64,000 nucleotides of DNA from Acidobacteria bacterium RIFCSPLOWO2_12_FULL_66_21 (lineage in GTDB: Bacteria > Acidobacteriota > Vicinamibacteria > Vicinamibacterales > 2-12-FULL-66-21): contig MELC01000083.1 of NCBI GenBank assembly GCA_001767455.1, positions 32,504-96,503 on the forward strand, in the 5' to 3' direction. Shown piece after piece: positions 5,564-21,993 of the stretch. The notes beneath the pieces are model-generated. The model saw only the letters and a program-made list of their open reading frames with translations, was not told the origin of the DNA and made no database searches. The translations under genes were made by a program, and so were the position numbers. Position 1 is the first letter of the stretch. Every line of letters begins with the position of its first letter.

Positions 5564-7849
5564 TCAGCGACTGGCCAGAACGGGCGGGATGCCCGCGGCC
5601 TCCGGGCGCGACGCCGTCGCGTGCACGATTCCCGCGGCGGTCAGGTTCACGAGATCCTCAACGGTACTCCCATACTGTATGAGATGCGCCGGCAGGCGCG
5701 TCCCCATCAGCACCGGTCCGACGACGACCGCCTCGCCCATGTGCTCGAGGAGCTGCATGGCCAGATTGCCCGACTGAAGGTCCGGGAAGATCAGCACGTT
5801 GGCGTTGTGCTCGAGGTCGCAGAACGGGAAATACTCGGTTCGGATGTCGGCGCTCAAGGCGGTGGCGAGCTGCATCTCACCGTCGATGGTCAGATCCGGC
5901 GCGCGCGCCTTCACGATCTCCGTCGCCTGGCGCATTCGTCGCGCGACGGCGTGGTCCACGCTCCCGAAATTCGAGAACGACAGCATCGCCACCCGGGGCT
6001 CCAGCCCCAGCGCCCGCGCGCAGCCCGCGGTCAGCAGCGCGATCTCCGCGAGATCCTCCGCCCCCGGCTCGATGTTGACGGCACAATCCGCGAGGAAGTA
6101 CACGTCTCGCGGCAGCAGCACCATGTAATGGCTCGAGATCCGGCGCACGCGTGGAGCGGTGCCGACGACCTCGAGGATCATCCGCAGCGAGTCCGCGTAA
6201 TGCGCGGCGAAGCCCGACACCATCATCTCCGCGTCCCCGCCGTTCAGCATCATGCCGCCGTAGTACTCCGGCTGCTGCAGGCGCTCGAACGCGGTCGATC
6301 GCATGACACCGCGCCGCCGTCGCAGCCTGAAGTACTGCTCCGCGTAGGCGTCCCGCCGCGTGCTGCGCGCCGGATCGACGACGCCGATTCCCGCTGCGTC
6401 GAGGCCAAGGCGCTCGACCATCGCCCGGATCTCCGCCTCGCCGCCGAGGAGGATCGGCCGCGCGATCCCTTCGTCGGCGAGGATGGCCGCCGCCCGCAGC
6501 ACCGTCTCGCTCGAGCTTTCCGGAAAGACGACGCGCGGATGCTCGTGCCGGGCCTTCACGATCAGCCGCCGCATCAGCTCGCCGCCGGTGCCCAGCCGGA
6601 TGCGGAGACTTTCCTGATACGGCTCGGTGTCGATCGGCTTGCACGCGACCCCCTCGGCGATCGCCTGGCGCGCCACCGCCGCGGATTGGCGCACCAGGAT
6701 GCGTGGATCGATCGGCTTGGGGAGCAGGTACTCGGGGCCGAAGCTGAAGCGCTCGCGTCCGTAGGCGCGGCTGACCTCGTCGACGACTTCCTCGCGCGCG
6801 AGTTCCGCGAGCGCCTCGGCCGCCGCACCCAGCATGCCGTCGGTGATCCGCGTGGCCTGCACGTCGAGGGCGCCGCGAAACACGTAGGGGAAGCTGAGGT
6901 GATCGACAATCGCGTTGGGAAACTGCGACAGCGCCGTGGCCACGATCGCGTCCCGCCGGCTGGCCCGCGCCTCCTCGTACCCGATCTCCGGCACCGGCGT
7001 CGCGAGACTGAAGACGATGGGAAAACGCGCCATCGACCGGATCATCTCCTGCGTCAGGACGCCGCCGACCGAGGCGCCGATGAACACGTCGGCGCCCCGC
7101 AGCCCGTCCTCCATCGTCAGCGGCCCGCTGGCCGAGGCAAACGCCCGCTGGTACTCCGTGAGATCGTCGCGGCCGGCGTGGATCAGGCCGTGCGCGTCGT
7201 ACACGAGCAGCCCGTCCGCCGTGACGCCCATCCTTCGCAGCATGCGGGCGCAGCCGACGCCGACCGTGCCGGCCCCGCAGATCACGATGCGCGCGCGGCC
7301 GACGGCCTTGTCCACCAGCTCGAGCGCGTTCGACAGCGCCGCCGCCGCGACCACGGAGGTGCTCTGCAGGTTCTCGTGGAACACCGGGATGTGGAGCAGG
7401 CCGCACAGGCGCTCGTAAATCGAGAGCCCCTCGGGAGCGCGGATGTCCTTGAGGATGATGCCGCCGAATCCCGGCTCGAGCAGGCGCACGGTCTCGACAA
7501 AACGATCCGCGTCGCGCGTATCGAGCTCGAGATCGAACACGTCGATGTCGGCCAGCCGTTTGAACAGGATCGCGAGTCCCTCCTGCATCGGCTTCGCGGC
7601 GCGTGGACCGACGTCCCCCAGTCCCGGCACGGCCGATCCATTCGTCACGACCGCGACGAGATTGCCGCGCGAGGTGTACCGGAACACCGCGTCCGGGTCG
7701 GCGGCGATGGCTTCGCACGGAAACGCCGCGCCCGGCAGGTACGCGAGCCGCAGCTCCCGCGCGGTGAGGCAGGGTTTGCTCGCGCGCACCTCGATCTTGC
7801 CCGGACGGTTCGCGCCGTGATAGTCGAGCGATTCTTCGCGCCGGATCAT
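5564..7849 (-). CDS. Malic-enzyme-like / phosphotransacetylase-like fusion with altered metal site
   Basis: 761 residues with the domain order of NADP malic enzymes of the MaeB type. An N-terminal malic domain (about 45-175) is followed by an NAD(P)-binding domain with 'VICGAGTVGVGCARML' (about 180-400) and a C-terminal phosphotransacetylase-like domain (about 432-755, 'RVVFPESSSETVLRAA'). The catalytic Lys of 'AAKPMQEG' (K86) is kept. The metal-binding segments normally read about 'LEDIKAP' and 'FHDDQHGT'; here they read 'LKDIRAP' (K134-D135) and 'FHENLQST' (E159-N160). Two of the three usual carboxylate ligands are therefore replaced. This argues against ordinary malate decarboxylation. The ATG overlaps the stop of the preceding dikinase-like gene (ATGA), implying coupled translation and a shared job. 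It is the last gene of the operon. Confidence 0.85.
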   Translation of the reverse strand: MIRREESLDYHGANRPGKIEVRASKPCLTARELRLAYLPGAAFPCEAIAADPDAVFRYTSRGNLVAVVTNGSAVPGLGDVGPRAAKPMQEGLAILFKRLADIDVFDLELDTRDADRFVETVRLLEPGFGGIILKDIRAPEGLSIYERLCGLLHIPVFHENLQSTSVVAAAALSNALELVDKAVGRARIVICGAGTVGVGCARMLRRMGVTADGLLVYDAHGLIHAGRDDLTEYQRAFASASGPLTMEDGLRGADVFIGASVGGVLTQEMIRSMARFPIVFSLATPVPEIGYEEARASRRDAIVATALSQFPNAIVDHLSFPYVFRGALDVQATRITDGMLGAAAEALAELAREEVVDEVSRAYGRERFSFGPEYLLPKPIDPRILVRQSAAVARQAIAEGVACKPIDTEPYQESLRIRLGTGGELMRRLIVKARHEHPRVVFPESSSETVLRAAAILADEGIARPILLGGEAEIRAMVERLGLDAAGIGVVDPARSTRRDAYAEQYFRLRRRRGVMRSTAFERLQQPEYYGGMMLNGGDAEMMVSGFAAHYADSLRMILEVVGTAPRVRRISSHYMVLLPRDVYFLADCAVNIEPGAEDLAEIALLTAGCARALGLEPRVAMLSFSNFGSVDHAVARRMRQATEIVKARAPDLTIDGEMQLATALSADIRTEYFPFCDLEHNANVLIFPDLQSGNLAMQLLEHMGEAVVVGPVLMGTRLPAHLIQYGSTVEDLVNLTAAGIVHATASRPEAAGIPPVLASR

Positions 7850-10800
7850 GTCGCCCTCCCGGGAAGTGGATGTCGCTCTCTGGTGTCGCGCCACACCGCG
7901 AACACGGCCGGCACCGGCCGAAGCTGCAGCAGCCAGAAATTCGTGCCTTCGATGGCGAACTCGATGTCGAGCGGCTGGCGGTAGCCGGCCTCGAGCCGCG
8001 CGGCGGCGCTCACGACGTCGCAGAGCGCGACGTACTCGAGCGCCGGCCGCAGCCGCTGGTGGTACAAGGTGTCGACGCGCCGGGTCCCGGACCCGAACCC
8101 GGCGTCGAAGACGACGCGCTCCCGCTTGTCGTTGGTGATGTAGCGGAAGCGAATCGGCCCGCCGCCGGTGCTCTCGTCCTTCGACACGACGATCTGGTCG
8201 GCGGCGACCGCTCCGGAGACGATGCCCTCGCCGAGACCGTACGCCGCGTTGATCACTATTTCGCGCCACTGGCCGTCCGCGAGGTTGATGGTGTGCAGGA
8301 CGCCCGAGGCGGACGCCCAGACCATCCGCTGCACGAGCACGCCGCCGCCGACTTCGCCGGTGATGCCGAGCACGGAGCGGTTGTGAATCGCGCGCGCCGT
8401 CCACAACCCGCTCCAGGCGCGCCGCAGGTGCTCGCAGAGCGCCGCCTCCCCCCGCACGAACAGGAAGGTGTCGAAATCGCCGGCGCGGGCCGCCGATGGG
8501 AGGTCCTCTTCCCGCGCCGACGATCTCACCGCGACAAACGGCTGCCGCGGATCGTCGTGGCCGCCGGCGCACGCCGCCGCGGATGTGTCCGACGCGAGCG
8601 TCCGGTACGCGGCCGCGATCTCCGCTTCGAGATCGGCCGGGAGGCGCACGCTATCCCACGCGCGACGGATGGCGATCGATTGCTGCGCGGGCGACGTGTC
8701 GGTGCGCGCGAGAGTCCGGCGGATTGACTCGCGCAAGGGCAAGGTCAGCGCGCCTTCCACCGGGTCGGGAACCGGCGAGGCGAGCACGTCCTGGAAGGCC
8801 CGGTCCGTGACGACGAACCATGGCGGAATGAGCGCGCCCTCGCCGAGGCGCCGCGCTTCGGCGAGATTCGCCGCCTTCGAGCCGACGAGCGGCCACAGCT
8901 CGACGCCGCCATCGGCGGGCCACAGGACGCGGCGGCCGGACAGGAGCCTGACGAGCCCGTCGTCGTCAGCCGCCAGGCGCTCGCGGATCGATGCGGTCCT
9001 GGCTCTCGGCGCGGATGCGGTCCCGAGCACGTTGTCGATCCGATCGATTGCGTCGAGCGCGTGCCTCCAGCCGGCCGCGCCGCACGGCGGCGGCGACGCG
9101 TCGAACGCCGCTGACAGCTCGTCGCGCAACGCGAGGAGCCGCGCGGTGGCGAGCTGGTCGGTCGCGGGGCTTGCCGCCGGCGCCCGGTCGGGGGGCGTCC
9201 CGGTCCGGCTCCAGGACAAGAGCTCGTCGATGTTCGCGGCGAGATCGCCCGCGCGGACAACGGCGAGCCGCGCCGACAGCACCTCGGCCGGGTCGCCGGC
9301 AGCGGGAATGCTGGCCGCCGCCGACTGGGTGAGGGCGGCGAGACGGCGACGAACACGCTCCTCCATCTCCTTGACTGTCCCTCGGGTGATCTCACCCACC
9401 GAGGGATTGCGGAAGAGCGCCCCGAGCAGGCGAATCTTCTCCTGCTGCGCGACGGCGTGCCCCGCGCCAACCTCCCCCACGAGCAGCTCTGTGGCCGCAT
9501 GCCGGGCCAGCACCGGATCGTGCAGTCGTGTCAGCAGCCGTTCGAGCTGGTGCCGCGCCCGCAGCATCCGTCCGCGGCACGCGAGGAGATCGGCATCGGT
9601 CCGGGCGCCGCCGAGGCTTCGACTGGCCGCGGCGAGGAGTTGAAGCCCCTCGTGGAGCGCGAGCGCATCCCGTTCCTGTCCAAGAACGCGGAGCGTGCCC
9701 TCGTCCGCGTCGACGACGAGAAGGTCTCCGTCCTGCACGCGCTCCTCGTGCTCGACCGAATCGTGCTGTTCCACCACCTCGAAGCCATCGACGCGCGCCC
9801 GCACCTCGCGGTGCCGCACCCTGGAGTACACGAGCGACTCGCGGCCGGCCGCGTCGCGTTCGAGCGCCGCCGGCACCACGAGCGCCGGCTTGCGGAACTG
9901 CAGCGCGAGCAGCCCGGCGTGGCTCAGGATTCCACCGCCGGTGGAGATGACGGCGGCCGAGCGGAAGACGAATGGATTCTCGGCGGGGCTCAGCACTGGG
10001 GCGATGAGGATGCTGCCTTCGACGTCCTGGGGCCGCCGCCCGGCCAGGCCGACGCGCGCGAGACCGACCGCGCGCCCCGGCGAGGCTTTGACGCCGGAGA
10101 GCGCCCGTTCCCCGGGAACCAGGGCGGAGCGCGTACGCGTGTTCGGCGCGCCGAAGAGCGCACGCACGGCGGACGCGATCGACGCAGCCGGCTCTGTCTC
10201 ACGGTCCATCCACGCCGCGGCAAAGTTGTTGCGCCGGAGCAGCGCGGCAAAGGCGTCGGCGTCCACGGACCAGTTCGCGCGCCATGGCGCGTCCGTGGCG
10301 TCGCGGCGCTCGTGCAGCGTCTCGCCCACGCCACACAGCGCGAGACGCTGGATGCCGCTCGCGTCGCTGAGCGCATAGAGCGCGAGCGCGCGGTCGGCCA
10401 GCGGCAGGATCGCGCGCTTCACCTCGTATCCGTTGACGGCGCCACTCGTCTCGGAACGAAGGCCCGCCTCGAGCACGGCGGCGAGCCTCGCCAGGCGCGC
10501 GGACTCCGCCAGTGTCTCGTCGTCGGACGCGAGCATCCGCGCGAAGACGCTTGCCTCGTGGAACGTGCGGTAGAGCGTGGGCGGGCGCGCGCTGAAGCCG
10601 TCGCGCCCTTCGACGATCTCTCCTCTCTCGAGCGCGTGGCGGAGCGGCGCCAGGAGGTACGCGTCGAGGGCAAGTTGCGTCAGCGGGCGTTCGGCGCTGA
10701 AGGTTGGAACACAGGCGATGGCGCGGCGATCGAGGGCTTCCCTGAGCGCCGGCCAGAACTCCGCGGGCGCGTCCACGGAAAACCGATCGCGATACGGGCC

Positions 10801-12864
10801 GTCCCCGTTCCAGCGGAGCTCCCGCTCGCCGGCCGGATCGCGCTCGACGCCGACGAGAATCCCGAGCCGGTCGCCCGTGAGCACGTGACGCATCGGCACG
10901 AGACCCCAGCGGGCGAAGAACTCGGCCCACGCGCACGCGACCGCCCCGCGCGCTTCCTCGCCGAGCTGAAGGTCGCCGACGATCCAGTCCACGTCCATCA
11001 ACGACGGAACCAGCCGGAAGAGCGCCTCCACCTTGTCCGAGAGCTGGTGGAGGTCCGCCGCACGCTCCTTGTCGTAGCGCGCGTGGATGCGGGTGTTCGT
11101 GACTTGGACGTCGAAGTCCATTCTGCGGAAGATGGCCTCGATCGCGGTCAACGACGGATTCGGATGCCACTCCAGGTCGTACTTGCTGACGCCGCAGTAC
11201 TCCAGATCGATCATTCCGCCGCGCTGCGGGGGCGAGAAGTCCACTCGAATGAACACGGGGTGGTTCCGAAACGCGGCGAAGCAGTGGACCTCGTTGCCGT
11301 AGCAGAAGATCCGCAATTTCGGCAACGCCCGCTCGCCGTGCAGGAGGTGGCGTGTGAATGCGTCGGCCGCGATCCACACGACGCGCGGCACCGGCCGCTG
11401 GCCGCGCGATTCGAAGTCGGCGTATTCGATGGGCGGCAGCGTCTGCAGGACGCCGTCGGAGGCCGCCAGCACGAGCGTGACCGTGCGGTTCGTCATGCCC
11501 GTGCCCTCCGCCAGCTTGAAGCCGAGGGCGAGCCCTCGCTGATGAAGGTAGCGCTTGCACCCATGCATCGTGCGGACGTCGGCCGCGGAGGCGGGATCCT
11601 CGAACATCTGCGCCAGCCGGGTCAGCGCCGGGGAGAGCGGCTGCCCCGGCACGGCCGCCGACAGCTCGCGCTCGATGGCGGCGCGGAGCGTGCGGTACAC
11701 GCGCGCGACGCCGTCGCACTCGTCGGTATGGCCGGCAAAGATCGCGACGAAGTCCTCGACGATCTCGTCCATCTGCGCGAGCATCCGCCGCACTCGATCG
11801 ACGGTCAGCGGGGCGACGTCCAGCAGATCGACGAGGATGTCGGCGTGCCGCAGGTTGTACGCGCGGAAGCGATCGACGGCCGTACTTGCGGCCTGGGCTT
11901 CGCCTGAGGTGGTTGCGCCGTACGCCTCGGCGACGAGGTGCTCGGACAGCTTGCGGACGCCCGGGCAGTGCGCGAGAAGCGCATACTCCGCGGGCGTCGC
12001 CAGCAGCGGGAAGGACTCGCCGACGGCAAAGGCGATTCGCGCATTCACCACGAGCCCGCAGTTGAGCGCCCGCCCGCCGATCTCGCCCACGATCTGACGC
12101 AGCAGCGCCTCGCCGCATCGGGCCTCGGCGGCCTTCAAATCCTCGATGAGCGCGTCCGGATCGCATCCGCCCGCCGCAAGGTCGACCAGATCCAGGTAAG
12201 TCGCCCGCGTGTAAGCGAGGTACGGCTCGAGAAACCCGGCGAGCTGCCGGCCGAGGAGGCCCGCCGCGACATCACCTGGCGGCAGCGACGACGACAGGTC
12301 GAGGAGCCGGGCGGCCAGCCGGCGCGTCGAGAGATGCGGCGCGCGCAGGTCGGGCGCGCCGCCGAGAAAACGAGCGACCGTCTCCATGGCCGCCGCGGAT
12401 CGCAGGAGGTCGGGTCCGGAGTCAATCGTCCTGGCGAGCGCGCCGACGAACTCGTCGTCGATCGCCACGCGGCCCTGGCGCACGAGCTGCTCCAGGCGAT
12501 CGAGCGTGCGGCCGCAGACCTCCGGATCGGCGGACGCGAGCAGTTCCACCAGCATCGTCCAGGGGCGGTCGCCGGCCTCCGCCACGTCGTAGAGCAGCGA
12601 GATGAGCGGCCCTTTCGCCGCGTCCGGCGTGGTCCGGGACAGTCGGACCAGGCTCCGGAGACGCGCGGCATGTTCCGGGCGGTACCAGTCGTGGCGGTGC
12701 TGCCTGAGGGCCGCGCAGGCCTGTGCGACCCGCTCGGCGTCACCCGAAATCAGCGCCAGCTCGGATTCGATCGTCTCGACTGCGCGATCGAACGGCGACA
12801 CCTCCGGCCGATCCTCGATGTGGGGGGATGAAGGTCCCGCGAGTCCGTGGGCGTGACTCGACAT
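7846..12864 (-). CDS. Giant PEP-synthase/dikinase-like protein with reversed domain order
   Basis: 1672 residues. The first ~900 are not recognised: a helical region (about 20-440), then a mixed alpha/beta part with 'TMHGCKRYLHQRGLALGFKL' and 'IDLEYCGVSKYDLEWHPNPS'. At about 930-1050 there is a swivelling phosphohistidine domain, 'TGGGILSHAGLLALQFRKPA', with His982 in the expected place. From about 1320 to the end there is a PPDK/PEP-synthase-type ATP-grasp domain ('LVGSKAANLAEARRLGEG', 'VAVRSSAREEDLPSAARAG', 'QPLDIEFAIEGTNFWLLQLR'). PEP synthase and rifampicin phosphotransferase place ATP-grasp first, and PEP synthase adds a C-terminal PEP barrel. Here the order is reversed and the barrel is absent, as in plant alpha-glucan water dikinase. 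It likely transfers a phosphate from ATP, through His982, to a substrate held by the N-terminal region. Substrate unknown. Confidence 0.85.
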   Translation of the reverse strand: MSSHAHGLAGPSSPHIEDRPEVSPFDRAVETIESELALISGDAERVAQACAALRQHRHDWYRPEHAARLRSLVRLSRTTPDAAKGPLISLLYDVAEAGDRPWTMLVELLASADPEVCGRTLDRLEQLVRQGRVAIDDEFVGALARTIDSGPDLLRSAAAMETVARFLGGAPDLRAPHLSTRRLAARLLDLSSSLPPGDVAAGLLGRQLAGFLEPYLAYTRATYLDLVDLAAGGCDPDALIEDLKAAEARCGEALLRQIVGEIGGRALNCGLVVNARIAFAVGESFPLLATPAEYALLAHCPGVRKLSEHLVAEAYGATTSGEAQAASTAVDRFRAYNLRHADILVDLLDVAPLTVDRVRRMLAQMDEIVEDFVAIFAGHTDECDGVARVYRTLRAAIERELSAAVPGQPLSPALTRLAQMFEDPASAADVRTMHGCKRYLHQRGLALGFKLAEGTGMTNRTVTLVLAASDGVLQTLPPIEYADFESRGQRPVPRVVWIAADAFTRHLLHGERALPKLRIFCYGNEVHCFAAFRNHPVFIRVDFSPPQRGGMIDLEYCGVSKYDLEWHPNPSLTAIEAIFRRMDFDVQVTNTRIHARYDKERAADLHQLSDKVEALFRLVPSLMDVDWIVGDLQLGEEARGAVACAWAEFFARWGLVPMRHVLTGDRLGILVGVERDPAGERELRWNGDGPYRDRFSVDAPAEFWPALREALDRRAIACVPTFSAERPLTQLALDAYLLAPLRHALERGEIVEGRDGFSARPPTLYRTFHEASVFARMLASDDETLAESARLARLAAVLEAGLRSETSGAVNGYEVKRAILPLADRALALYALSDASGIQRLALCGVGETLHERRDATDAPWRANWSVDADAFAALLRRNNFAAAWMDRETEPAASIASAVRALFGAPNTRTRSALVPGERALSGVKASPGRAVGLARVGLAGRRPQDVEGSILIAPVLSPAENPFVFRSAAVISTGGGILSHAGLLALQFRKPALVVPAALERDAAGRESLVYSRVRHREVRARVDGFEVVEQHDSVEHEERVQDGDLLVVDADEGTLRVLGQERDALALHEGLQLLAAASRSLGGARTDADLLACRGRMLRARHQLERLLTRLHDPVLARHAATELLVGEVGAGHAVAQQEKIRLLGALFRNPSVGEITRGTVKEMEERVRRRLAALTQSAAASIPAAGDPAEVLSARLAVVRAGDLAANIDELLSWSRTGTPPDRAPAASPATDQLATARLLALRDELSAAFDASPPPCGAAGWRHALDAIDRIDNVLGTASAPRARTASIRERLAADDDGLVRLLSGRRVLWPADGGVELWPLVGSKAANLAEARRLGEGALIPPWFVVTDRAFQDVLASPVPDPVEGALTLPLRESIRRTLARTDTSPAQQSIAIRRAWDSVRLPADLEAEIAAAYRTLASDTSAAACAGGHDDPRQPFVAVRSSAREEDLPSAARAGDFDTFLFVRGEAALCEHLRRAWSGLWTARAIHNRSVLGITGEVGGGVLVQRMVWASASGVLHTINLADGQWREIVINAAYGLGEGIVSGAVAADQIVVSKDESTGGGPIRFRYITNDKRERVVFDAGFGSGTRRVDTLYHQRLRPALEYVALCDVVSAAARLEAGYRQPLDIEFAIEGTNFWLLQLRPVPAVFAVWRDTRERHPLPGRAT

Positions 12865-12891
12865 GGCGGCGCGTCGGCAGGACCTTCGAGA

Positions 12892-12903
12892 CTCAGTATA
12901 GTC
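12892..12903 (-). promoter_or_regulatory. Possible internal -10 element
   Basis: On the minus strand the 64-bp gap between the second radical SAM gene and the dikinase-like gene contains GACTATACTGAG, with a TATACT hexamer about 30 bases before the ATG at 12864. No convincing -35 box is seen, so an internal promoter is only possible. The gap also lacks a strong ribosome site. Confidence 0.25.
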
Positions 12904-12928
12904 CCGATAGGGGCCCTCGGCTGTCGCG

Positions 12929-13678
12929 TCAGCCCGCCGGTCGCAGCTCCGGCGTTCTCGTAATCAAATACGACGTGCCGAGCGTTCCGTCGGCGAACAG
13001 GTTGATGCTCCGGCATTCGGCACGATCGAAGTCCCAGCGCGTCACTTCCATGCCGTGATAGTCGAGCACCGCGTTCCCCTTGAACCACTTCACCACCGGA
13101 TAGGCCGGGAGAATGCTCCACCGGCGCTCGTCGCCGTACAGCGTCCGAAAGACGAGACGGCGCACGCCAGCCTCGTGGCATCGGGCCACGAACTCGTCGA
13201 CCTCGCCGGCGTTGTGCTCGTTGATGACGGCCGACACCTTCACCGGGATCGTCGCGCGGCGCAGGATCGCCGCCAGGTCGGGCACGTGCGTCGATCCCGT
13301 CAGCCGCGCGTAGGTTGCCGGATTGAATGACGGGAACGAGATGCACGCGCGATCGTACCGGTTGAAGATGTCGATTCGGCGGAGCGCCAGCACGCCGTTC
13401 GTGTGCAGCGCGAGGCGCGCGCAGGGATGGAGTCGCTCGCGCAGCAGCTCGAGGAGCCTGGCCTCGTGCGCGTAGAGCTGCGGGTCGCTGACGGTCCCTG
13501 TCAGCGTCACCTGTGGAATCCTCCACCGATTGACCGTCTCGACGAAGCCCTCGAGGCCGCGCAACGGGTACTCGTTCAGGTTGCTGACGTTGACACGGTC
13601 GGGCAGCAGGCGTCCGATGCACCACGGACACGCGCGATTGCAGGGGCCTGCGAACAGGATGTTCGCAAAGTCATACAT
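12929..13678 (-). CDS. Radical SAM protein (CxxxCxxC), short form
   Basis: 249 residues, starting almost at once with the 4Fe-4S motif 'CNRACPWC' (C13, C17, C20). This is followed by a partial TIM barrel with 'QVTLTGTVSDPQLY' (in place of the GGEP strand), 'LALHTNGVL' and 'IPVKVSAVINEHNAGEVDEF'. No SPASM or twitch cluster follows, so only one Fe-S cluster is expected. It shares the MoaA/NifB-like barrel, but I cannot place it in a characterised subfamily. Its start overlaps the end of the HemN-like gene by eight bases, and it lies 64 bp before the dikinase-like gene. Two different radical SAM enzymes in one operon suggest a multistep modification of a small molecule or cofactor. Confidence 0.85.
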   Translation of the reverse strand: MYDFANILFAGPCNRACPWCIGRLLPDRVNVSNLNEYPLRGLEGFVETVNRWRIPQVTLTGTVSDPQLYAHEARLLELLRERLHPCARLALHTNGVLALRRIDIFNRYDRACISFPSFNPATYARLTGSTHVPDLAAILRRATIPVKVSAVINEHNAGEVDEFVARCHEAGVRRLVFRTLYGDERRWSILPAYPVVKWFKGNAVLDYHGMEVTRWDFDRAECRSINLFADGTLGTSYLITRTPELRPAG

Positions 13679-15116
13679 GGGCGGACGTCATCTCCTGCGG
13701 TCGATAGTCGCCAGTCGCTGTTCGAGAGTCGGTCGCCGACTCCAGCAAGTACTGCTGGATCGACGGCGCGTAGAACAGCGCGATCACGCCATTGACACTG
13801 CGGCTCCCGGCGCGCGTGAGCCGAAGCGTTCGCGCGGTGTAGTCCATGAGCCCCTCCCCAATCGCGAAGTCGATCTCGCCGCGAAACAGGTGGGCGAGCG
13901 CCACGCCGAATTTCGACGCGAACGCGCCGGTGTCGATTTCGCCGAAATAGAAGCTGACGGCGCACATCTTTCCCATCATCTGCCGCGCGGGCAGATCGTA
14001 GAGATCCTGCAGCGGCAGCGATCCGCGGGCGATCGCCCGACGATACGCGGCGAGGTTCTTCGAAGCGGCTCCGGTGTTGTAGGAAATCGTCGTGTGGGTG
14101 AACGACTGCGCGCCCAGCCCGAGCCCCAGGTACGGCATCGCCTCGACGACCCGGCGCGTCAGGTACGCGCTGGTGCCGGCATCCCCCGCAATCCTGCTGT
14201 ACGTCGTCTTCCCGGGAGTGGCGGCGTAACCCGCATCGGCGAGCATGTCGCATGCGAGCGCAGTCATCGCCCGCACCTTCCCCAGACCGACATGCCGCGC
14301 ATGGTGCGCGATCCGCGTCAGCTTGTAGCGCATCCGGTACAGAGTGATGTACTCGGGATCCAGGCCGATGGCGTGTCGCAGCGTCGCGCGCCATCCCTCG
14401 AGATCCTGCCCAGCGAACCCGTACATCAGATCGAGGTTGAGCCGGCGGAAATCGGCCGCGCGGACGTTCTCCACCGCACGGCGGTGGCAGTCTGCGGCGT
14501 TGCCCGACCGGTTGAGGGCTTTGAGGAGATCGAGCTCGACGACCTGGAGGCCCATGCTGATCCGATCGATCCCGATCCGCCTGAAGGCGGCCAGCTTGTC
14601 CGGGCGGGCGGCCGCGATCTTCGGCGTCGTTTCAATGCTGATGTCGCTTCCCGGCATGAACCTGAACATGGAGCGCGCCTTCTCGACAATGCGCGCGACC
14701 TCGTCCGCCGGAAGAACCGAGGGGGTCCCGCCGCCGATGTCGAACCCGTGCAGCAGCCTGGGCTCGGGTCCGAAGACCTCCCGATAGAGGTCGAACTCGC
14801 GGAGCAGATCGTCGACGTAGCCGGCGGCCGCGGGCAGGCCCTCCCGGTCGACCACCGCGTATTCGCAAAACGAACAGCGCGTCTCGCAGAACGGGATGTG
14901 AACGTAGAGGCAGAGATCGTCGATACCGGACCAGGCACGGCCGGCCACCGCCGCCGCGCTCGCCGCGTCGACGCGGTAGGGCGCCCACGTGAGGGTGTGC
15001 GCGATCGGATACGCGGTATTCGCGATGTGATGGTTCCGGAGCCCGGCCTCGAAGACAGCACGCGGCGCGAACGGCCTCGCGTCGGCAGGCGAGGGTGGGA
15101 CCCAGACGCGATTCAT
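13671..15116 (-). CDS. HemN/HemW-like radical SAM protein
   Basis: 481 residues. After ~65 variable residues comes 'CLYVHIPFCETRCSFCEYAV' (C77, C81, C84), then 'GFDIGGGTPSVL', 'IDRISMGLQVV' and a winged-helix-like C-terminal region. This is the HemN family pattern (coproporphyrinogen dehydrogenase, HemW haem chaperone and the radical SAM methyltransferase or cyclopropanase relatives). The N-terminal extension ('PFAPRAVFEAGLRNHH') and divergent C-terminus make true coproporphyrinogen oxidase unlikely. The upstream oxidoreductase stop overlaps its ATG (ATGA at 15116-15113), so expression is coupled. Electron delivery by that flavoprotein is a reasonable inference. Confidence 0.87.
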   Translation of the reverse strand: MNRVWVPPSPADARPFAPRAVFEAGLRNHHIANTAYPIAHTLTWAPYRVDAASAAAVAGRAWSGIDDLCLYVHIPFCETRCSFCEYAVVDREGLPAAAGYVDDLLREFDLYREVFGPEPRLLHGFDIGGGTPSVLPADEVARIVEKARSMFRFMPGSDISIETTPKIAAARPDKLAAFRRIGIDRISMGLQVVELDLLKALNRSGNAADCHRRAVENVRAADFRRLNLDLMYGFAGQDLEGWRATLRHAIGLDPEYITLYRMRYKLTRIAHHARHVGLGKVRAMTALACDMLADAGYAATPGKTTYSRIAGDAGTSAYLTRRVVEAMPYLGLGLGAQSFTHTTISYNTGAASKNLAAYRRAIARGSLPLQDLYDLPARQMMGKMCAVSFYFGEIDTGAFASKFGVALAHLFRGEIDFAIGEGLMDYTARTLRLTRAGSRSVNGVIALFYAPSIQQYLLESATDSRTATGDYRPQEMTSAHV

Positions 15117-16444
15117 CGCGTGGTGGCGGCGTTTCCTGCGACGTTGACGGGATCGCGCACGGCCGAATACGGCGGCGCGTACGCAAGATCGAGCGCGGCC
15201 AGCTGCTCCACCGTCAGCCCGCCCGCCACGGCCGTGGCAAACACGTCGATGCGCTTGTCCACGCCCGCCCGGCCGGCCAGTTCCGCGCCAAGGACGCGGC
15301 CGGTGGACCGCTGGTAGGTCAGCTCGATCGCGATCGGCTCCGACCCTGGAAAGAACTCGTCGTGCGACGGCGCTGTGACGTGCAGCACCGCGGCATCCGG
15401 TCCCGCATCGGTGGAGGTGACGCCGGTGCGCGCGATGGTCGTGTCGCCGGCGCGCAGGATCGCGGTGCCGAGTACCGCACCCAGCCGCGCATCGCCGCCC
15501 GCGGCGCAGATGCCGGCCACCTGCGCCGTCTTGTCAGCCATCGCCGCCTGGGCGAACCAGATGGGGCGCCCCCACGGCGCGTGCGGCACCGACACGCAGA
15601 CGCCACACGCGAACACGCCGGGCAGGCTCGTCGCCGCGTGCTCGTCGATGGGCACGGTGCCGTCCGGCAGGAGCCGGGCGCCCGCGGCGCGAAGAAGATC
15701 CGTGCGCGGCCGCAGCCCGGCCGCGATGACGACGAGGTCCGCCTTGAGCCGCCGGCCGTCCGCCAGCACGACAGTCGTGACCTGGGAGCCTTCGCGCATC
15801 ACCGACGCCGGCGCCGCCCCGGTGAGGACGGTCGCGCCGGCCCCCTGCAGCGCCTCGGCGGCCATCGCGGCAATCGTCTCTGAATGCCTGCTCAGAAGCC
15901 GCGGTTCGCGCTCGACGATCGTCACCCGGCATTTCCGCCGTAGGAACCCGTCGGCGGCCTCGACGCCGAAGTAGCCGCCGCCGAGAATGACGACGCGGCG
16001 CGCGCCGCGATCGAGCGCGGCCGAAATGCCTTTGAGATCCGCGGGAGTCCGAAAGCGGAAGACGTTGCGCGCCGTCTCGAGTCCGGCGACGTCCGGCACA
16101 ATCGACTCGGCGCCGGCCGCGAAGATCAGCCGGTCGTACCGCAGCCGCTCTTTGTCGAGCACGAGCTGGCGGCTCTCGGCGTCGATCCGTTCGACGCGCA
16201 CGCGCGTGCGCACCTCGATGTGATGGACGCGCTCGACAAGCTGCGCCTGGCGCCGGTTCGCCGCCGTCAGGTCGGCAACCTCCCGCGACACGGAGTAGGC
16301 CAGCCCGCCCACCGCGTAACGCACGGCCGCGCCCTGCTCGAGGATGACAATGCGAGCGGTCCTGTCGATCTCGCGTGCCTTGAGCGCAGCGGTCGGCCCG
16401 CTCAGGGCCCCTCCGACGATGGCAATCACCCGAGGCTCCACCAT
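15113..16444 (-). CDS. CoA-disulfide-reductase-like FAD oxidoreductase lacking the redox Cys
   Basis: 443 residues in the layout of CoA disulfide reductase/NADH oxidase proteins: FAD site 'IVGGALSGPTAAL' (about 9-21), NAD(P) site 'VVILGGGYFGVEAADGFL' (about 150) and a C-terminal dimerisation domain ending 'YAPPYSAVRDPVNVAGNAA'. The family signature around the active-site cysteine, roughly 'SFANCGLPYY', is 'RYAVGGLAYS' here, so Gly46 replaces Cys. The usual 'AAGDC' FAD contact is 'ACGVC'. The protein may still bind FAD and pass electrons but should not form the Cys-SSCoA intermediate. The frame is open upstream to 16531 through a repeat element; the ATG at 16444 is preferred because homology starts there. 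It is the first gene of the five-gene operon. Confidence 0.85.
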   Translation of the reverse strand: MVEPRVIAIVGGALSGPTAALKAREIDRTARIVILEQGAAVRYAVGGLAYSVSREVADLTAANRRQAQLVERVHHIEVRTRVRVERIDAESRQLVLDKERLRYDRLIFAAGAESIVPDVAGLETARNVFRFRTPADLKGISAALDRGARRVVILGGGYFGVEAADGFLRRKCRVTIVEREPRLLSRHSETIAAMAAEALQGAGATVLTGAAPASVMREGSQVTTVVLADGRRLKADLVVIAAGLRPRTDLLRAAGARLLPDGTVPIDEHAATSLPGVFACGVCVSVPHAPWGRPIWFAQAAMADKTAQVAGICAAGGDARLGAVLGTAILRAGDTTIARTGVTSTDAGPDAAVLHVTAPSHDEFFPGSEPIAIELTYQRSTGRVLGAELAGRAGVDKRIDVFATAVAGGLTVEQLAALDLAYAPPYSAVRDPVNVAGNAATTR

Positions 16445-19754: not shown

Positions 19755-20864
19755 CTAAATGACCCTTCCTGGCGTGACGGCGGCGGCATCAATCCAGTCG
19801 GCGGGCTGTCCGGACAGGAGCGATGCCGCCAGCTCACCGACCGCCGCGCTGCACATCATCCCGAATCCTCCCAGGCCGGATACGTGGAAGAGGCCCGGGA
19901 GCTGCGGGTCGCTGCCGATGAGCGGGCGGCGATCCGGCGCGAACGTGCGAAGGCAGGCCCAGCTCCGGCGGATGGCGAGATCGCCGAGGCGCGAAGCCGA
20001 GCGGCCCAGTTTCTCCGCGAGCAGTTCCGCGGCCGCAGGATCGGTGGATGGCAGACCCGGCGGCATCGGCGTCTCGTCGCACGGTGACAGCAGCAGTCCG
20101 TCTCCTTCCGGTCTGAAGTACAGCGCCGCGTCCTCCAGCCACGTGAACGGAAGATCGCCGCGAACGAAGTCCACCGGCCCTGACACGAAGAGATGGCGCC
20201 GCATGGGTGTCAGGCCAAGCGGCGCGGACGCGCGTCCGAGCTGTCCCGCCCACGCACCTGAAGCGTCGACAATCGTGTCCGCGCGGATCTCGTCGTCGCC
20301 GATCAGGACGCCAACGGCCCTCCCCCGCTCCATCACGAGATCGTCGACGCGCGTGTTGGTGCGCAGCCGGAAGCCGCCTTCGCGTGCGCCTTCGAGGTAG
20401 CGCACGAGAAGGGCGTGGATGTCTGCGACCCCCTCGTCGGGACACCACAGGGCGCTCTGAAAATCGAGGAGCTCGAGGAACGGCCACTCCCGCCGTGCTC
20501 GATCGAACGGCAGCAGGCGTGACGGCACGCCTTCCGTCGCGAGCGCGTGCTGGAGCTCCTCGAGCTCGTGCGCGCTCGAGTCGCTCGACGCGACGGCGAG
20601 TCCGCCCGTCTGGTTCAGCAGCGGCGCGCCAGGTGATTCGAGCGATCGCATGCCGCGCAGTCCGCGCTTCGCCAGCGTGCGTATGATCGGGTCCCCCTCG
20701 GACAGCTTCACCAGCGCGGCGTTGCGCCCCGAGGCGTGCATGCCGAACGACGGTTCCTGCTCGAGGATCAGCCCGGGCCCAAGGCCGGCACGCGATAATG
20801 CCCATGCCGTCGCCGCGCCCGCGAACCCCGCTCCGACGATCACCCACCGCGTCTGCTGCGCCAT
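19755..20864 (-). CDS. FAD-dependent oxidoreductase, DAO family
   Basis: 369 residues with an N-terminal Rossmann motif 'WVIVGAGFAGAATAWAL' (about 7-23), 'GMHASGRNAALVKL' in the FAD-binding loop, 'IVDASGAWAGQLG' and a C-terminal 'GLFHVSGLGGFGMMCSAAVGE'. This is the D-amino-acid oxidase/glycine oxidase fold (PF01266). The substrate cannot be told from motifs. The start codon directly follows the stop of the upstream DUF2891 gene, so the two form an operon. It converges on the M1 peptidase gene with seven bases between them. Confidence 0.9.
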   Translation of the reverse strand: MAQQTRWVIVGAGFAGAATAWALSRAGLGPGLILEQEPSFGMHASGRNAALVKLSEGDPIIRTLAKRGLRGMRSLESPGAPLLNQTGGLAVASSDSSAHELEELQHALATEGVPSRLLPFDRARREWPFLELLDFQSALWCPDEGVADIHALLVRYLEGAREGGFRLRTNTRVDDLVMERGRAVGVLIGDDEIRADTIVDASGAWAGQLGRASAPLGLTPMRRHLFVSGPVDFVRGDLPFTWLEDAALYFRPEGDGLLLSPCDETPMPPGLPSTDPAAAELLAEKLGRSASRLGDLAIRRSWACLRTFAPDRRPLIGSDPQLPGLFHVSGLGGFGMMCSAAVGELAASLLSGQPADWIDAAAVTPGRVI

Positions 20865-21965
20865 CTACCTGTCCGCCGCATGCGGCGGCAGGCCGCGGAG
20901 GGTGACGAGGTAGACGGCGAAGGTCCCGAGCCAGTGCCCGCCTTCGTAGTGTTCGCCGGTGACATCCTTCAACCCGGCGTCGCGATGGATTCTCGCGGCG
21001 GCATCGAGTGAGCCGCGCCGCGGATCCGAGGCCGGCAGCCCGCTCGAGATCCCTTCGAGCATCCACGCGCGCGACAGGTTCAATCCGCTCAAGTGCCCCA
21101 GCTTCGGATCGCTGGGATCGGTGACGACGCCGGGAACGAGCCAGTCGCCGCGTCCGGTCGTGGGAAGCGAGGGAAGGAAGCCGGCGAGCCAGGACGCGAA
21201 CTGCGGCGGAGGCAGGACGCGCCGCATCAGGTCCGCTTCGGCAAGGCAGGGAGACAGAAAGTCTTCGCCCGACGGCTCGTAGGCGGTCGGGCATGCGCGG
21301 TCCTTGAAATAGAAGTCGCGCGCGCGCGAGACGAGCAGCCCCTCCATGTCCTTGTGGCCCGTGGATCGCGCCCAGTCCAGCATCAGGCTGAACGAAAACG
21401 CGCTCTGTGAGTGCTCGCCGATGCGGATGGGCGCCGTCAGCTTCGGCAGCCAGTCGCGGATCCGCGCGGCGGCCTCCCGCTCGAGCGGCGCGAGTGTCGC
21501 CGCCCAGCTCCGCACGTCCGCGTCGCCCGGACGTTCGCCCGCCCACTCGTCGAGCTCGGCTCCAAGCCGCAACAGCCAGGCGAGCCCGTACGGCCGCTCG
21601 AAGGACACGCGGCCGGCGGCCTTCAGGTACCGCACCTCACCGGCGATGTTCGCCGGCGTCAGGCTCTTCGCGAGCGCGGCGCGCGCGCGGGCCGCAAACG
21701 GCGCATCCGGATGGCGCCTCGCGAGCCTGGCCAGCAGCCAGTGGCCGTGCACGGACGAATGCCAGTCGTAGCAGCCGTAGAAGGCCGGCGTCAGCTCCCG
21801 CGGCGGCCTGACGTCGTCGTCGCCATTCAGGGCGTGCGCAATCTTGTTCGGGTATTCCTTGTGGACGCACGCGAGCGCGAGCTCGACGAAGCGCGTCTCG
21901 GAGGCCACGTCGAGGGAAGGCCGTTGTGGAGGAGCCGCCATCAGGGCGAGCGCAAGCAGCAGCAT
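20865..21965 (-). CDS. DUF2891 family protein
   Basis: 366 residues with the hallmark 'FVELALACVHKEYPNKIAH' near the N-terminus, 'YGCYDWHSSVHGHWLLARL' and 'GEHSQSAFSFSLMLDWAR'. It ends with 'EHYEGGHWLGTFAVYLVT'. These are the conserved blocks of DUF2891, an alpha/alpha-toroid-like family of unknown activity. The conserved Asp, His and Glu residues look catalytic. The ATG at 21965 is chosen over an in-frame TTG at 21983 because it gives a short signal peptide 'MLLLALALMAAPP'. Immediately followed by the DAO oxidoreductase gene. Confidence 0.9.
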   Translation of the reverse strand: MLLLALALMAAPPQRPSLDVASETRFVELALACVHKEYPNKIAHALNGDDDVRPPRELTPAFYGCYDWHSSVHGHWLLARLARRHPDAPFAARARAALAKSLTPANIAGEVRYLKAAGRVSFERPYGLAWLLRLGAELDEWAGERPGDADVRSWAATLAPLEREAAARIRDWLPKLTAPIRIGEHSQSAFSFSLMLDWARSTGHKDMEGLLVSRARDFYFKDRACPTAYEPSGEDFLSPCLAEADLMRRVLPPPQFASWLAGFLPSLPTTGRGDWLVPGVVTDPSDPKLGHLSGLNLSRAWMLEGISSGLPASDPRRGSLDAAARIHRDAGLKDVTGEHYEGGHWLGTFAVYLVTLRGLPPHAADR

Positions 21966-21993
21966 GTCGCGATCATATGGCAACGAGAGGCCA

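Follow-up and report, generated by a model that had tools for sequence, protein, structure and literature searches.

Glucan and phosphoglucan water dikinases (GWD/PWD) carry a phospho-histidine domain followed by a C-terminal ATP-grasp domain. Here we describe a bacterial dikinase of this order, encoded together with a malic enzyme/phosphotransacetylase-like (malic/PTA) protein in a 64,000-nucleotide stretch of contig MELC01000083.1 of Acidobacteria bacterium RIFCSPLOWO2_12_FULL_66_21 (the window). Among small-molecule dikinases, the two-component systems HpeHI, CreHI and PpsAB as well as rifampin phosphotransferase (RPH) combine an ATP-grasp domain with a swivelling phospho-histidine domain bearing the motif S/TxxGGxxxH and have no pyruvate barrel; in HpeH, a substrate domain is joined to the swivel (PMC12167813). 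The two genes belong to a run of five open reading frames at 5564-16444, all on the minus strand, to which all coordinates within this run refer; the gene families as first named are supported by Pfam and NCBIfam. A preliminary description of this run had proposed that the five genes, three of them relatives of central-metabolism enzymes, were recruited together to something new. Their common strand, junction sizes, domain orders and altered motifs were all confirmed, and the proposal is supported for the dikinase and malic/PTA genes but not for the other three. It is near certain that the region consists of two modules placed end to end, 5564-12864 and 12929-16444. We estimate at about 60% the probability that the first is a standalone dikinase and pseudo-malic two-gene system, operating by the mechanism proposed below and lying beside a separate radical-SAM module; that mechanism is much less certain than the division into modules.

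The dikinase (7846-12864) is a chain of 1672 residues in which a helical solenoid, an orphan acceptor core, the histidine swivel, a linker and the ATP-grasp domain follow one another. Like HpeHI, CreHI, PpsAB and RPH, it has the ATP-grasp and swivel domains and the S/TxxGGxxxH motif, and lacks a pyruvate barrel. The ATP-grasp domain (residues 1325-1651; 7912-8892) matched PF01326 with 201 bits, and its residues K1330, R1447, D1633, E1635, Q1647 and R1649 are conserved. The swivel domain (residues 913-1062; 9679-10128) was identified both by Pfam (PF00391, residues 949-1056) and by fold comparison with pyruvate phosphate dikinase (PPDK; Z 16.7, 2.4 Å over 121 residues). It carries the motif as S974-TGGGILSH982, and His982 (9919-9921), the predicted phospho-carrier, was invariant in 35 relatives. 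In contrast to this group, the dikinase is a single chain with the swivel placed before the ATP-grasp domain, contains a solenoid and an orphan core, and has an obligate pseudo-malic partner. RPH matched the dikinase model mainly through the swivel, the widest alignment having a root mean square deviation of 7.4 Å, and nothing in that model resembled the rifampin-binding fold convincingly. With GWD/PWD it shares the succession of a histidine domain (949-1056) and an ATP-grasp domain (1325-1651), from which family it differs in being bacterial and in having a partner gene; a Pfam scan of the whole dikinase gave no match to a starch-binding or other carbohydrate-binding module.

The enzymes most readily suggested by homology are phosphoenolpyruvate (PEP) synthase and PPDK, whose ATP-grasp domain, swivel domain and catalytic residues are matched here. 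The protein might then be one of these enzymes with its domains merely rearranged. We regard this as highly improbable. The order of those enzymes, ATP-grasp, histidine domain and barrel, is reversed in the dikinase; PPDK_N and PEP-utilizers were the only families matched by Pfam, and neither Pfam nor profile search found a PEP/pyruvate barrel. Moreover, the N-terminal 900 residues are unrelated in sequence, and the same genomes encode several other PPDK_N proteins. The inverted domains and missing barrel, both pointed out in the preliminary description, are thus in agreement with the Pfam scan. In the genome of the window itself, nine stretches matched PPDK_N, several of them in frames of 850-1060 residues, which indicates several other dikinase-type proteins.

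The place of the barrel is taken by a region of helical repeats and by a core under strong conservation. The former (residues about 20-230; 12175-12807) looks like a HEAT/ARM-type solenoid in the AlphaFold2 model and gave VIA matches to helical repeats at Z 8-10, which may reflect only a common arrangement. The latter (residues 430-660; 10885-11577) is the most conserved N-terminal part and a putative acceptor-binding domain. In an alignment of 35 full-length dikinases with a mean identity of 40%, 137 columns were at least 97% conserved. These cover His982, the residues of the ATP-grasp domain named above and a dense stretch within 430-660 with the motifs LHGLKRYLHQ and RNHP..R.D.SPP..GGM.DL.Y.GVS and the residues R596, D598 and K599. 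Residues 1-1110 were modeled by AlphaFold2 with good confidence (pLDDT 85.8, pTM 0.80), and a fold search with these N-terminal 1110 residues gave no convincing match beyond the swivel domain. The core folded alone (residues 405-668, pLDDT 84) had no Foldseek match below an E value of 0.001, and its best Z score, 6.3, was to unrelated chains and under the level that the tool treats as meaningful; such a poor match of a predicted structure does not prove a new fold. In a search of 396 genomes from the phylum, every core domain recovered lay in an open frame of about 1700 residues, the size of the dikinase, and none was found apart from it.

With the N-terminal region of the dikinase as query, we screened 149 genomes from the class. 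Six matched, the window's own included, and a malic/PTA gene lay after the dikinase in all four of the other genomes with enough flanking sequence, the sixth match being situated on a contig end. Conversely, a strong match to the malic/PTA partner was obtained in exactly 5 of the 149 genomes, the same five that contain a full dikinase. A scan of named genome contigs with the single dikinase protein gave no matches; an alignment (profile) query yielded 52 dikinase loci. Forty of these, from ten phyla, lie on contigs that continue beyond the dikinase, and at every one a malic/PTA gene follows immediately on the same strand, its product being 47-76% identical to that of the window; at the remaining 12, a short contig holds a truncated or broken dikinase. 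In the window, the junction is a 4 bp ATGA overlap (7846-7849) that places the malic start on the dikinase stop, and a 4 bp overlap of this kind was found in 18 of 38 cases. The trees of the two proteins mirror each other (r = 0.88, whereas permutations reached at most 0.38), a correlation to which shared species history contributes. The phylogenetic tree, with ten labelled phyla, is patchy, which fits lateral transfer without proving it. No flanking genes were widely shared among the pair loci; histidine kinases, sortilin-like proteins, ABC transporters, a tRNA synthetase and hydrolases were checked as conserved neighbors and rejected. A plasmid search returned no full-length relative of the dikinase, the best matches listed being confined to the swivel/ATP-grasp portion of different dikinases. 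We found no published description of the pair in a literature search that reached few subscription journals. The dikinase and malic/PTA genes form an invariant and widespread two-gene system, apparently one that is undescribed.

The same loci bear on the joint pathway put forward as one possibility in the preliminary description, in which the dikinase activates a substrate, the radical-SAM pair modifies it and the flavoprotein donates electrons. The common strand and tight spacing of the five genes favor such a pathway, as does the 64 bp gap between the short radical-SAM gene and the dikinase (12865-12928), the boundary of the two modules, in which we looked for a terminator and found none. 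Both modules are rare, hence their adjacency is notable. Against these points, flavoprotein or radical-SAM genes were present at none of the 40 named dikinase loci, nor at the dikinase locus of the four class genomes, and the short radical-SAM protein was found nowhere in the five other class genomes that carry the dikinase. A lack of co-occurrence of the five genes in relatives had been named beforehand as the observation that would refute one system, and the two gene sets do occur separately. A five-gene pathway is therefore largely refuted and strikes us as hardly credible; pyrophosphoryl activation of a radical-SAM substrate is unsupported.

The second module comprises genes for a short radical-SAM protein (12929-13678), a HemN-like radical-SAM protein (13671-15116) and a CoA-disulfide-reductase-like flavoprotein without the redox cysteine (15113-16444), joined by overlaps of 8 bp (13671-13678) and 4 bp (15113-15116). 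The absence of the cysteine, noticed at the outset, was upheld by alignment, since SFANCGLPYY of CoA-persulfide reductase corresponds to RYAVGGLAYS; the position is occupied by glycine both in the window and in a relative from another genome, G027. The flavoprotein scored 259 bits against the NCBIfam model of CoA-disulfide reductase, whose cut-off is 578.8, and the HemN-like protein fell below every curated equivalog cut-off (HemN, HemW and STM4012), the best being STM4012 with 172 of 380 bits. Both radical-SAM proteins keep CxxxCxxC and matched the Radical_SAM family of Pfam, one with 57 bits and the other with 30.0 against a cut-off of 29.5. In G027, a HemN-like gene (67% identical) lies between genes for the flavoprotein (50% identical) and the short radical-SAM protein (64% identical), and no dikinase was found in a search with its N-terminal region. 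Ser/Thr protein kinase genes border this trio at either end (L031:1232-3730 and 7625-9244).

In the sample of 396 phylum genomes, only three apart from that of the window were found to encode the short radical-SAM protein. In these three, its gene and the HemN-like gene precede genes for a nicotinamide mononucleotide (NMN)-adenylyltransferase-like protein, a fused adenylyltransferase-NAD kinase and a glycosyltransferase (GT2) in an apparent operon (L087:6750-13191 in G176; also L088 and L089), with an NrtR-type regulator encoded divergently. The three genomes yielded no close flavoprotein relative. A DUF1848 gene is located upstream of the L087 cluster (L087:16450-17283). An electron-donor role for the flavoprotein in a pathway with the dikinase thus loses its ground, the trio existing without the dikinase and the radical-SAM pair recurring in a NAD operon. 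From its place beside NAD-cofactor genes, the pair is probably involved in the chemistry of nicotinamide nucleotides or of a similar cofactor. No published description of the radical-SAM pair was found either, within the same limits of the literature search. The flavoprotein, HemN-like and short radical-SAM genes are a rare unit with a function separate from that of the dikinase pair. Elsewhere in the window, a DUF2891 protein (20865-21983, minus strand) adjoins a DAO-family oxidoreductase (19755-20864).

We compared the active site of 38 members of the partner family with that of Bdellovibrio MaeB (6zng), whose numbering we use for the family and the roles of whose catalytic residues have been described (PMC7902834). 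The partner in the window (5564-7849; 761 residues) is, like MaeB, a fusion of a malic enzyme and a PTA domain and matches it over its full length (E 1.5e-195). Its malic-enzyme-like domain (residues 17-357; 6779-7801; PF00390/PF03949) retains the NAD motif and, in the partner's own numbering, Tyr37. Unlike MaeB, it has L92 (7574-7576) for the general acid/base Lys107, K134 (7448-7450) for the catalytic Glu149 and E159-N160 (7370-7375) for Asp174-Asp175, the family reading HENLYST where MaeB has HDDQHGT. Across the family, Lys107 is Met or Ile in 31 of 38 and never Lys, Glu149 is Lys in 33, Asp174 is Glu and Asp175 Asn in 35 each, and Asn300 is Thr in 31. Tyr52, Asp150, Gly207/209, Asp233 and the NAD motif are kept. 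Thus, the loss of metal carboxylates noted in the preliminary description is real and extends to the general acid/base Lys and the nicotinamide Asn, and its conservation in ten phyla goes beyond what a lone sequence could show. Because the replacements are uniform over these phyla, they look selected rather than decayed. Judged by its sequence, the partner, which always adjoins the dikinase, is not a working malic enzyme. Three canonical MaeB genes near the pair (L060:16359-18575, L065:7552-9189 and L068:1444-3666) have an intact active site and keep every replaced residue, including D-D. In the PTA-like domain of CoA sensor type (residues 425-738; 5636-6577; PF01515), pocket residues are partly kept: Y576, N718, P735 and Q748 are retained, and T614, Y721 and K722 are replaced. 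The acetyl-CoA pocket is known to vary between MaeB clades (PMC12704298).

At three other loci, from two unrelated lineages, genes for a Na+-transporting beta subunit and an oxaloacetate decarboxylase alpha-like protein abut the pair (L041:5018-9704, L043:16447-19449 and L079:17110-19605). Together with the three MaeB loci they hint at the malate/oxaloacetate/pyruvate node and thus at C3/C4 acids. From such a context one may also picture a metabolic enzyme pair, in which the partner, its active site rewired, makes or uses the phosphorylated product of the dikinase, for example the enol phosphate of a C3/C4 keto acid. The fixed, non-decayed replacements (E149K in 33/38, D174E and D175N in 35/38) would suit this proposal, as would the lysine that is lost at 107 and gained at 149, the retained Tyr52 and NAD motif, and the decarboxylase or MaeB genes near six loci. 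We nevertheless consider it rather unlikely: neither the general base nor the metal ligands that serve the parent reaction are present.

The most likely reading is an ATP-driven dikinase with a cofactor-binding pseudo-malic enzyme that controls it or is coupled to it, given the features legible in the two genes: intact ATP and phospho-histidine machinery, a conserved acceptor candidate, a conserved loss of malic catalysis and a fixed pairing. By analogy with PPDK, PEP synthase, RPH and HpeHI, ATP would phosphorylate His982 with release of AMP and Pi, and the swivel would then deliver the phosphoryl group to an acceptor occupying the 430-660 domain. The partner would bind NAD(P)(H) and possibly acyl-CoA, as an obligate regulatory or accessory subunit. 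The acceptor might, speculatively, be an acid of the pyruvate/oxaloacetate/malate node.

Several observations weigh against a controlled, standalone dikinase. The conserved malic-site replacements could have made the partner a catalyst of a new reaction and not a regulatory subunit; the predicted acetyl-CoA pocket is only in part retained, Tyr721 and Lys722 of MaeB being replaced; and the metabolic hint comes from only 6 of 40 loci. In the window, moreover, one transcript may span both modules, the gap between them having shown no terminator.

We tentatively entertain, with the odds somewhat against it, the wider idea of a hitherto undescribed ATP-dependent phosphotransfer system, distributed over ten bacterial phyla, whose dikinase has a new acceptor-binding fold and works only with a cofactor-sensing or rewired ex-malic partner. 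Such a system would give the pyruvate/oxaloacetate/malate node a reaction or a point of control that is new. Annotation by homology would tend toward "PEP synthase" and "NADP-malic enzyme" for these genes, and metabolic models derived from it would be wrong. A two-gene unit fixed over ten phyla, in which one enzyme is strictly rewritten and the other has an orphan, catalytic-looking domain, poses a clear and testable question in carbon metabolism.

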